DNA from: Alphaproteobacteria bacterium
GTDB lineage: Bacteria; Pseudomonadota; Alphaproteobacteria; Caulobacterales; Caulobacteraceae
Direction: 5' to 3'
Length of the DNA: 44,409 bases
Assembly (NCBI GenBank): GCA_003241825.1
Contig: QBLX01000002.1
Location: 4,532-48,940 of the forward strand
In this document: positions 42,271-44,409 of the stretch, in pieces
Numbering within the stretch: the stretch's first letter is position 1
How the letters are laid out: the number at the start of each line of letters is the position of its first letter
The notes under the pieces: generated by a model
The model's database searches: none
What the model saw: the letters and a program-made list of their open reading frames with translations, nothing else
What the model was told of the DNA's origin: nothing
Position numbers and translations under genes: made by a program

Positions 42271-43131
42271 ATGACCGCGAGGCCCTCCCCCTTACTTGTC
42301 GCGCGAACCGTCGAAGCGTTGCGGGCAACCGTTGGCGAGTGGCGACATCAGGGGCTGGGCGTGGGATTTGTGCCGACGATGGGAGCCCTGCATGAGGGAC
42401 ATCTGACGCTGATCGCCGAGGCGAAGCAGCGCGCGGACCGGGTCGTCGCCAGCGTGTTCGTCAACCCGACCCAGTTCGCGGCGCACGAGGATCTCGGCAC
42501 CTACCCCCGCAATGAAGATCGGGATGCCGATCTGCTGGCCGAGGCGGGCTGCCATCTTCTTTTCGCACCTGGCGTGGCGGACATGTATCCCGAGGGTTCC
42601 ACGACGCGCATTGATGTCGGCGGCCCTTCGCTGGGGCTCGAAAGCGACTTTCGGCCCCATTTCTTCGGCGGCGTGGCCATTGTCGTGGCCAAGCTGCTGA
42701 ACCAGGTCCAGGCCGATGTCGCGGTCTTTGGCGAGAAGGACTACCAGCAACTGCTCGTCGTCCGGCGCATGGCCCGGGACCTCGATATCCCGACCGAGAT
42801 CCTCGGCAGCCCGACCCTGCGCGACGGCCATGGCCTCGCGCTGTCATCGCGCAACGCCTACCTCTCCGAAGACGAACTGGTCGTGGCCCGCCAGCTGAAT
42901 GGCATCCTCTTCAAGGCCGGGGTCGACGTTTCAGCCGGCACGCCCGTTGAGGTGGTAGAGAGCAATGCGACCGCAGCCCTGCTGGCCGCGGGCTTTGGCA
43001 CAGTCGACTATGTTGCGGTCAGGCGTGCTGACGACCTGTCGACGTTCACAGGCGCGGTTGACGCGCCTTCCCGCATCCTGACCGCTGCCTGGCTAGGCAG
43101 GACCCGGCTTATCGACAACCTGCCGATCTAG
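42271..43131 (+). CDS. panC: Pantothenate synthetase
   Basis: This 286-aa enzyme has the adenylation signature 'FVPTMGALHEGHLTLI' (HIGH-type), 'PTQFAAHEDLGTYPR', 'VFGEKDYQQLLVVRRM' and 'LALSSRNAYLSEDE' (KMSKS equivalent). It joins pantoate and beta-alanine for coenzyme A synthesis in the cytosol. ATG 42271 is used; GTG 42262 nine bases before is an alternative. panB is not adjacent. Its end overlaps the convergent chorismate-mutase gene by four bases. Confidence 0.93.
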   Translation: MTARPSPLLVARTVEALRATVGEWRHQGLGVGFVPTMGALHEGHLTLIAEAKQRADRVVASVFVNPTQFAAHEDLGTYPRNEDRDADLLAEAGCHLLFAPGVADMYPEGSTTRIDVGGPSLGLESDFRPHFFGGVAIVVAKLLNQVQADVAVFGEKDYQQLLVVRRMARDLDIPTEILGSPTLRDGHGLALSSRNAYLSEDELVVARQLNGILFKAGVDVSAGTPVEVVESNATAALLAAGFGTVDYVAVRRADDLSTFTGAVDAPSRILTAAWLGRTRLIDNLPI

Positions 43132-43889
43132 CCGATCGCGCCTACGCAGCCCTCGGCCTCGCCCGGCGTCAACTGGGCGTCGGTGAGCGCGAGGGTCCAG
43201 CCGTGATGGGTGTTGATCCCCCAGCGACGTGCTCCGCCGCCGTCCCCGGCGTCGCCACCGGCCGTAACCACCACGCGGCGGCCGTGAGGCAGGGCAGCCG
43301 GGTCGATCTTGCCGACAGCCAGAGAGGTCGGCACCTCGCCCCCGAAGCCCTCGAATACCGACAGGCTCGACCATTCGCGCCTGAGGCCCAGCCACCATGC
43401 ATCATCGGTATTGACCGCCAGAACCGCAACGCCGAGCCCTTCGGCGGCGAAGCGCAGCGCAGCCTGAGGGTCGCGCACCATGCGAATGCCGGCTGCCATG
43501 CCAAAGCGCTGGCGGGCACCGTCGAAATGCCGGGTCGGATCGGTCGGAGCCCAGACGTGGACCTGAAGCTGACCCTGACGCGCAAGGCCCCAGCCGACGA
43601 TCTCGCGCCATAGGCCGCGCACGGCGTCGACGTTGTCGGGCTCCGCACCGGTGAGCATCCGCGTCATCACCCGCTGTTCACGGTCCGGGCGCAGCTTGGT
43701 ATGCGGCCCCTGGGGTGCGTCCTTGGCGTGGCCGACACGGGCAGCGATGGAGAGCCGCTTCTGGAACAGTCGGAGAAGTTCGTCATCGACGGCATCGATT
43801 TCGGCCCGCAGGCCTGCCAGGGCCATCTGCTCGGGAGACAGGTCTTCGGTCATTTCAGGCCAGACTCGCTGGAGATTCAATTGGGACAT
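43128..43889 (-). CDS. Chorismate mutase (AroQ-type) domain protein
   Basis: This 253-aa protein carries an AroQ chorismate mutase helix bundle in its first ~110 residues (LRAEIDAVDDELLRLFQKRL with conserved Arg/Glu, then 'SIAARVGHAK' and 'REQRVMTRML'). A C-terminal ~140 residues begins 'VHVWAPTDPTRHFDGARQR' and resembles a substrate-binding-type domain of unknown role, found in caulobacterial versions. It converts chorismate to prephenate for Phe and Tyr. The start may be 43889 or MTED at 43853. A Phe/Tyr-rich leader ORF and hairpins lie upstream, and prephenate dehydratase precedes it. Confidence 0.8.
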   Translation of the reverse strand: MSQLNLQRVWPEMTEDLSPEQMALAGLRAEIDAVDDELLRLFQKRLSIAARVGHAKDAPQGPHTKLRPDREQRVMTRMLTGAEPDNVDAVRGLWREIVGWGLARQGQLQVHVWAPTDPTRHFDGARQRFGMAAGIRMVRDPQAALRFAAEGLGVAVLAVNTDDAWWLGLRREWSSLSVFEGFGGEVPTSLAVGKIDPAALPHGRRVVVTAGGDAGDGGGARRWGINTHHGWTLALTDAQLTPGEAEGCVGAIG

Positions 43890-43938
43890 GGGATTGGCTT
43901 TCGAATATTCGGGTTCGATGGGGTGCAGGCGCGCGCCG

Positions 43939-44033
43939 CCGCTCTGGTCCAGAGCGGTCGCCGGCGAGGCTGTCAGGAGCGAGGAGCGCTCGAGGCCTCA
44001 GCCGGCGTATCGAAAGCCGGAAAAACGATAGCC
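43939..44033 (-). promoter_or_regulatory. Candidate attenuator structures before the chorismate mutase gene
   Basis: Three possible stems overlap the leader's end. A: ggc-tatcg with cgata-gcc (44004-44033). C: the leader's last codons and stop, gcctcagccggc (43995-44006), with gccggcgaggc (43960-43970). B: ccgctctg with cagagcgg (43939-43957). Stems A and C share bases, so they exclude each other. B has no U-rich tail. The arrangement fits ribosome-controlled folding, but the terminating step is not clear. Confidence 0.5.
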
Positions 44034-44099
44034 AAAATAAAGGGCAGCCGCGCGCGAACGGAGCGAAAGAACGGAAGCGTCAGCGCGTAGCGGGGACAT
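43998..44099 (-). CDS. 33-aa Phe/Tyr-rich leader peptide ORF
   Basis: The ORF encodes a peptide whose residues 21-31 read YFGYRFSGFRY, six of eleven being Phe or Tyr, just before the stop. Such codon runs are typical of attenuation leader peptides. It lies about 108 bases before a chorismate mutase gene, the branch-point enzyme for these very amino acids. No strong ribosome site is seen (a GGA at a suitable distance). It is too short for the ORF track. Confidence 0.6.
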   Translation of the reverse strand: MSPLRADASVLSLRSRAAALYFGYRFSGFRYAG

Positions 44100-44165
44100 G
44101 GGTGGGTCCAATCATCGGATCAAGGCGATCCGGGCAGTCTTAAGACACGCAACGATCGTGCGGCG

Positions 44166-44409
44166 TCAAGCCTTTGGTGCCCCGATCAGCACAAAACGCG
44201 TGCGATTTTCGGCGGAATCCTGAAGGTCGTTGCGCAGAATGGTCAGGCCGTAGACCTCCGCGGCTCCGGCCGGGGCCAGGGCAGCGCGCATCGGGTCTGC
44301 GCCTTCGGCCACGGCACGGGCAGCGCCGGCGGTGTCGAAGACCTCAACCGGAGCAAGTCCGAGAGCCTTGATCTGACCCTGGCACTGGCGCAGGGCGACG
44401 GGGTGGCTT
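44166..44409 (-). CDS. pheA: Prephenate dehydratase, C-terminal part (runs off the window)
   Basis: The visible ~80 residues are the end of a PDT domain: 'HPVALRQCQGQIKALGL' (matching HxALxQC), an 'AAEVYGLTILRND' segment and the catalytic TRF motif in 'ENRTRFVLIGAPKA', followed at once by the stop. Typical monofunctional enzymes continue ~80 residues with an ACT domain that senses Phe. Here it is absent, so direct feedback by ACT is not expected. The N-terminus lies beyond the window. Confidence 0.85.
   Translation of the reverse strand, partial: SHPVALRQCQGQIKALGLAPVEVFDTAGAARAVAEGADPMRAALAPAGAAEVYGLTILRNDLQDSAENRTRFVLIGAPKA

Follow-up and report, generated by a model that had tools for sequence, protein, structure and literature searches.

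A conserved Phe/Tyr leader peptide before the chorismate mutase gene of Brevundimonas, probably acting as a translational attenuator

The chorismate mutase (CM) gene of Brevundimonas is preceded by a short conserved open reading frame, the final codons of which specify Phe and Tyr and are at the same time complementary to the Shine-Dalgarno sequence of the CM gene. The best explanation for this arrangement is a ribosome-dependent translational attenuator of CM that would sense the charging of both tRNA-Phe and tRNA-Tyr, a reading to which we give, from comparison of sequences and from predicted RNA folds, a probability of about 0.68.

The leader was found in a window of 44,409 nucleotides, by which is meant the whole stretch of DNA analysed, from a Brevundimonas genome whose CM shares 97% identity with the B. 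variabilis enzyme. In window coordinates its parts and its neighbours are as follows.

44166..44408, minus: 3' end of the prephenate dehydratase gene (PF00800, profile match), upstream neighbour outside the regulated unit
44164..44169, minus: -35-like TTGACG of the leader-CM unit, overlapping the dehydratase stop codon (TTGAC upstream of the leader in 59 of 59 loci)
44140-44145, minus: candidate -10 TCTTAA, downstream of the -35-like TTGACG
43998..44099, minus: leader peptide ORF, MSPLRADASVLSLRSRAAALYFGYRFSGFRYAG and stop (frame open in 95 of 95 distinct homologues)
44007..44039, minus: aromatic codon block TAT TTT GGC TAT CGT TTT TCC GGC TTT CGA TAC (Phe/Tyr conserved in homologues)
44010..44018, minus: switch strand, or 5' arm of helix P4, GGCUUUCGA (codons Gly-Phe-Arg), within the invariant 24-nt GGCTTTCGATACGCCGGCTGAGGC (pattern search, complementarity to the CM Shine-Dalgarno)
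43959..44007, minus: P2, long stem over the last leader codons and the stop, with base CGCCGG:CCGGCG, UGAGGC:GCCUCG and a covarying distal part (covariation, z)
43939..43957, minus: P3 hairpin CCGCUCUGGACCAGAGCGG with no U-tract after it (compensatory changes, z)
43914..43919, minus: distal partner AUCGAA(A), able to pair with UUUCGAU in the switch strand (folds of loci L010 and L054)
43896..43904, minus: 3' arm of P4, UCGAAAGCC, holding the putative CM Shine-Dalgarno GAAAG at 43898-43902 (pairing versus slid controls)
43128..43889, minus: CM, the regulated gene (CM_2, PF01817, residues 27-105, profile match)

The leader ORF and its conservation

The leader ORF lies on the minus strand between the prephenate dehydratase gene, which ends at 44166, and the CM gene (43889 to 43128). 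It starts with ATG at 44099, runs over 33 codons to 43998 and ends in ...YFGYRFSGFRYAG before a stop located 108 nt from the CM start. Six of the eleven residues in the segment YFGYRFSGFRY are Phe or Tyr, and the chance of at least six is about 6e-6 when these two amino acids account for 5.0% of codons, as they do in sampled genes of the genus. The leader is thus a short ORF before a gene, enriched in codons for the products of the pathway, as are the leaders of ribosome-dependent attenuators of amino-acid genes. A preliminary description of this DNA had proposed such a Phe/Tyr leader peptide in control of CM, with the same ORF (strand not given), the same aromatic segment and the same position between the two genes; these particulars hold, and the core idea is well supported by the comparative data. 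Of its bounds of 43939-44099, the lower one, 43939, marks where the second stem ends; the functional element continues to the CM start at 43889.

The leader is probably translated, judging from the conservation of its frame, which is free of stops in all 95 distinct copies when the other two frames have stops in 36 and 35 copies. Relative to the GGC at 44018, Phe or Tyr is kept at offsets -6 (90%), -3 (86%), +3 (100%) and +9 (97%). At offsets -18, -12 and -6 the codons alternate between TTT, TTC and TAT, with 40 TTT, 24 TAT and 22 TTC among the 95 copies at -6, so that an aromatic residue is kept while the nucleotides vary. Since Phe and Tyr replace each other upstream of the leader end, it is the aromatic character that is the kept trait, and in short natural leaders (e.g., ...NLYSGFRYAG and stop) the sole aromatic codons left are those next to the leader end. 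The last codons, in contrast, are fixed in their nucleotides as GGC TTT CGA TAC GCC GGC TGA GGC, with essentially no synonymous change in TTT CGA .. GCC GGC, even though TTT makes up only 9.5% of the Phe codons and CGA only 5.8% of the Arg codons in the genus. On this codon evidence, the swapping of Phe and Tyr upstream bears the mark of tRNA sensing, and the frozen codons at the end bear the mark of RNA pairing.

The 95 distinct leader copies, and the 59 non-redundant loci among which most quantities below were calculated, were collected with the regular expression TTTCGA[TC][AG]CGCCGG, and invariance within this set is therefore partly due to selection. An unbiased basis is given by loci chosen by their CM protein, where every Brevundimonas locus with available DNA upstream of CM carries the leader ORF, and by a search with a degenerate pattern for GFRYAG-stop-Gly/Ala that admits 1024 synonymous forms. 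Matches to the pattern were obtained in 67 of the 73 Brevundimonas genomes and in representatives of two sister genera, with one leader copy per genome, and the genuine matches all read GGCTTTCGATACGCCGGCTGAGGC, save one with a single change in its final base (GAGGT). When the slightly diverged leaders of five more Brevundimonas genomes (L136, L137, L160 and G177/G219, the genomes of L078/L080) are added to the 67 found by pattern, the leader is present in 72 of the 72 CM-bearing Brevundimonas genomes examined. Conservation of the ORF and its aromatic codons among relatives had been suggested as a check on the proposal, and this attempt at refutation failed. One Brevundimonas genome that is 99% complete (G092) lacks CM as well as the leader, which makes it a natural case of double loss; it is possibly an aromatic auxotroph or the user of another CM.

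Outside the genus the leader precedes CM in a few genomes of three sister genera (L120-L124, L138), and it is missing upstream of the sampled CM homologues of other Caulobacteraceae, which are more distant. A covariance model of its 3' part (R1) gives 60-108 bits for Brevundimonas, whereas hits in the rest of the order and class do not exceed about 28 bits and are about as numerous as chance would produce in some 680 genomes; putative distant copies at other genes or in other orders were therefore rejected. These comparisons indicate that the leader is a real, conserved regulatory leader with a single target, and that it is a feature of the Brevundimonas clade and not of Caulobacterales in general. 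A contig of a metagenome-assembled genome assigned to Bordetella (L063) also encodes a Brevundimonas-type CM (71% identity) with the leader, and is probably mis-binned.

RNA structure and the chorismate mutase Shine-Dalgarno

The RNA of the leader region folds better than its shuffles (z of -4.1). P2 pairs the leader codons and stop in CGCCGGCUGAGGC with GCCUCGCCGGCG; it has a mean z of -4.5 over the 59 sequences and compensatory changes in its distal part. P3 has compensatory changes in five of its eight pairs and a mean z of -3.1. A conserved RNA structure thus overlaps the leader, and its state is predicted in silico to depend on ribosome position, in that the Shine-Dalgarno opens as described below. 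An Rfam search returned no family match, its best matches being far below the gathering scores.

The preliminary description had taken a leader-end stem and a downstream stem as mutually exclusive. The mechanics turn out otherwise: P2 (43959-44007) and P3 (43939-43957) do not overlap, and they fold together in the minimum-energy structure. Moreover, neither stem is followed by a U-tract in any of the 59 sequences, from which follows that intrinsic termination at P2 or P3 is unlikely, and a scan for terminator-like sites found none. With compatible stems and no U-tract, the intrinsic terminator that defines attenuators of the pheL/trpL type is absent, and the strand that would switch is instead GGC-TTT-CGA, paired with the CM Shine-Dalgarno. 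A hairpin of the pause type (P1, 44048-44061) in the N-terminal half of the leader, plausible on inspection, was rejected, as its mean z of -0.4 is no better than that of shuffles and its register differs between clades, and an antiterminator formed by the 3' arm of P1 with strands of P2 and P3, suggested by eye in GC-rich sequence, was dropped.

The frozen GGC-TTT-CGA is complementary to CGAAAGCC, which contains the unusual Shine-Dalgarno of CM. The motif GAAAG, which matches the 5' part of the Shine-Dalgarno consensus AGAAAGGAGG, is probably that of the CM gene; it occurs before only one of 73 other genes sampled, and GAAAG[CT]C before none of the 73. When GGCUUUCGA is set against UCGAAAGCC, 90.1% of the alignment cells are paired, compared with 24-57% for slid controls, and where the 3' arm changes at C:G positions the change is mostly from C to U, so that a G-U pair is kept. 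The alignment contains no compensatory double changes for P4, because the leader arm does not vary. The leader thus has a strand complementary to the Shine-Dalgarno of its gene, as have attenuators like the LEU element and ermC, here with no compensatory changes to accompany it. Conservation of the pairing has its limits: much of the complementarity is gone from five divergent leaders (L072, L123, L136, L137, L160), at least four expected pairs between element and Shine-Dalgarno form in only 25 of 59 sequences in a strict test, and in many sequences of the main clade the Shine-Dalgarno pairs with upstream aromatic codons instead. In the folds of L010 and L054, for example, UUUCGAU pairs with a first copy, AUCGAAA, and the Shine-Dalgarno copy is bound by Gly-Tyr codons further upstream.

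To see what such pairing would imply, consider the 59 non-redundant sequences folded in two ways, with an unoccupied leader or after deletion of all RNA as far as the leading edge of a ribosome. These models leave out tertiary structure, proteins, kinetics and trailing ribosomes, and the probabilities that follow are model values. When the leader is free, the mean probability that the CM Shine-Dalgarno is unpaired is 0.24, and it is 0.26 when a ribosome stands 24 nt upstream of the switch strand. When the P-site is at most 12 nt from the switch strand or later, the probability becomes 0.53-0.57, and with the ribosome on the last aromatic codons it is 0.53; in 54 of the 59 sequences the Shine-Dalgarno is more open in this stalled state. 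The stall positions that open it coincide with the best-conserved aromatic codons, at -6, -3, +3 and +9. The free-state probability rises to 0.41 when the four switch codons are synonymously recoded and to 0.44 when the leader codons are permuted, and shuffling of the 45 nt before CM brings the number of pairs between leader and Shine-Dalgarno from 4.3 to 1.0.

Proposed mechanism, alternatives and known systems

In the mechanism that we propose, transcription would start from a promoter just past the dehydratase gene and the leader ORF would be translated first. When Phe and Tyr are ample, the ribosome would complete the leader and depart. In the empty leader, the RNA of the last codons would form P2 and GGC UUU CGA would pair with the CM Shine-Dalgarno CGAAAGCC, assisted by upstream Gly-Tyr and Gly-Phe codons, so that the Shine-Dalgarno is sequestered and CM translation is low. 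When either Phe or Tyr is short, the ribosome would stall at the aromatic codons of the leader end (offsets -6 to +9) and cover the switch strand with its footprint, and neither P2 nor the sequestering helix could form; the Shine-Dalgarno would be freed and CM, which catalyses the step common to Phe and Tyr, would be produced. Comparative support comes from the apparently translated and conserved leader, the frozen switch strand, P2 and P3, the complementarity to the Shine-Dalgarno, a promoter of its own and the lack of an intrinsic terminator; what we infer beyond this is that the ribosome stalls, in which direction expression responds, and that control acts on translation and not on transcription or mRNA stability. 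The pathways to Phe and Tyr part after CM, and the mixture of codons fits this better than a leader with Phe codons only would. In the same genome there is a second ORF with a CM domain (L209:1471-1854; G000:C123:57236-57469), in an unrelated neighbourhood, which counts against the proposed control, though isochorismate lyase is its nearest match (PRK07075, below cut-off).

An alternative is that translation of the leader sets premature termination of transcription before CM, most likely by Rho, with P2, P3 and the position of the ribosome deciding on Rho access and with the complementarity to the Shine-Dalgarno as a secondary matter. Phe leaders of gamma-proteobacteria are transcriptional attenuators. 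So is trpL of Sinorhizobium (PMC7298713), and attenuation of ilvIH is reported in Caulobacter (PMC4117421). The 108 nt between leader stop and CM in the window also form a long untranslated stretch. Control by termination is less probable than translational attenuation: no U-tract follows P2 or P3 in the 59 sequences, no terminator-like site was found, and the conserved complementarity reaches into the Shine-Dalgarno, for which a terminator model has no need. One may also regard the invariant 24 nt as the binding site of a ligand or protein in a riboswitch-like cis element, as was proposed for the LEU element, with the ORF incidental or only modulatory. The 24 nt are indeed invariant also at positions that are single-stranded in some states, and P2 and P3 form a compact structure with a base stem that closes it at the Shine-Dalgarno, but a non-coding element needs neither a frame that is open in 95 of 95 copies, when other frames often have stops, nor Phe or Tyr retained at -6, -12 and -18 despite nucleotide changes. 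There is also no Rfam family match, and we consider such a binding element quite improbable. Least credible is that the conserved GFRYAG C-terminus itself arrests the ribosome, as in TnaC, and senses free Phe or Tyr. The residues FRYAG are almost invariant; their invariance is, however, at the level of codons and not of amino acids alone, as an RNA constraint predicts, and the Ala-Gly is dictated by the P2 stem. Furthermore, one sister genus (L123, L124) has its stop six codons further downstream, and in others Arg or His stands in place of Tyr, so that the amino acid conservation and fixed stop of TnaC-like arrest are not seen.

Relative to known systems, the proposed attenuator combines traits that otherwise occur apart. 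In pheL/pheA of enterobacteria, control is transcriptional through an intrinsic terminator and the leader has Phe codons only. Like these and trpL-type leaders, the Brevundimonas leader has codons for end products before a gene of the aromatic pathway, and ribosome position would set the RNA structure; unlike pheL/pheA, it lacks a terminator with U-tract, has Tyr codons as frequently as Phe codons, and has a ribosome-binding site as its target. With translational attenuators of the ermC/cat type it would share that a ribosome stalled on the leader ORF frees a sequestered Shine-Dalgarno. Those systems respond to antibiotics by nascent-peptide arrest, whereas the Brevundimonas leader would sense the supply of charged tRNA, and its anti-Shine-Dalgarno lies within its own sensing codons.

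In mode of action, the nearest known systems, by analogy, are the ermC type and the actinobacterial LEU element, which precedes leuA and in which consecutive Leu codons base-pair with the Shine-Dalgarno of that gene (Seliverstov et al. 2005, PMC1262725). In the LEU element as in Brevundimonas, the leader is rich in the amino acid of the pathway, the base stem is made of regulatory codons and the Shine-Dalgarno of the first biosynthetic gene, and there is no terminator. The LEU element is marked by leucine codons, leuA and a candidate conserved pseudoknot, and a sequence relation was neither looked for nor seen; the Brevundimonas leader differs by its nested hairpins P2 and P3, which need no pseudoknot, by its invariant Gly-Phe-Arg switch strand, by its Phe and Tyr codons, by CM as target and by its occurrence in Alphaproteobacteria. 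Mutation of the leucine codons reportedly leaves regulation by the LEU element unaffected (PMC1262725), and therefore a design of this kind need not mean sensing by a leader peptide. For Phe or Tyr genes of Actinobacteria, no conserved RNA structures were reported in that study (PMC1262725). In Alphaproteobacteria, leader-peptide attenuation is described for Trp genes in Sinorhizobium (trpL, PMC7298713) and for branched-chain genes in Caulobacter (ilvIH, PMC4117421), in both cases as transcriptional, and the parts of these accounts available to us describe no aromatic CM leader. No description of a CM leader for the group was found in the open literature searched.

A more specific claim is that the sensing codons themselves are the anti-Shine-Dalgarno of a translational attenuator for Phe and Tyr, of a class confined to the Brevundimonas clade and residing in part on leaderless leader mRNAs; for this the odds seem to us about even. 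Detector and switch may be the same nucleotides because UUU/UUC and the codon pairs Gly-Phe and Gly-Tyr complement the purine-rich ribosome-binding site GAAAGCC. If the proposed mechanism is true, Alphaproteobacteria gain an attenuator for the step common to Phe and Tyr that is apparently translational and not transcriptional, and the leader exemplifies that sensing codons and anti-Shine-Dalgarno can be one strand. Leader control could keep a pathway responsive to the supply of aromatic amino acids even though its dehydratase lacks the Phe-binding ACT domain. The system is directly testable, as it has one target gene, a switch sequence that does not vary and about 95 variants found in nature, and the leader might find use as a Phe/Tyr sensor part.

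The transcription unit and its neighbours

TTGAC(G/C) occurs upstream of the leader in 59 of 59 non-redundant loci, and a scan with a sigma-70 consensus gave no site. The controlled unit appears to be CM alone, because it has a promoter of its own and because leader and CM stay together in sister genera (L120-L122, L138) where the upstream gene is not dehydratase-like. One subclade has its leader ATG at a distance of 35-36 nt from TTGAC, which suggests that its leader mRNA is leaderless. The stretch from promoter to leader ATG (44100-44163, minus, in the window) contains a conserved GGATC...GATCC hairpin in most loci of the main clade and is absent from the leaderless-type subclade.

About 145 residues at the C-terminus of the CM protein belong to no Pfam family, and the nearest NCBIfam model to the protein is PRK06034, "hypothetical protein", below cut-off. 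The AlphaFold model of this part is poor, with pLDDT <50 from residue 198, and a fold search with it gave only non-significant matches, which included prephenate dehydratase and GqqA structures. The prephenate dehydratase upstream covers positions 1-179 of the 181 of PF00800 and then ends, and so lacks an ACT domain, as had been noted from the window alone. A run of Ns splits its gene exactly at the window end (L002 ~2430; G000:C90 about 48940), and the halves on the two sides match PF00800 positions 1-106 and 99-179.
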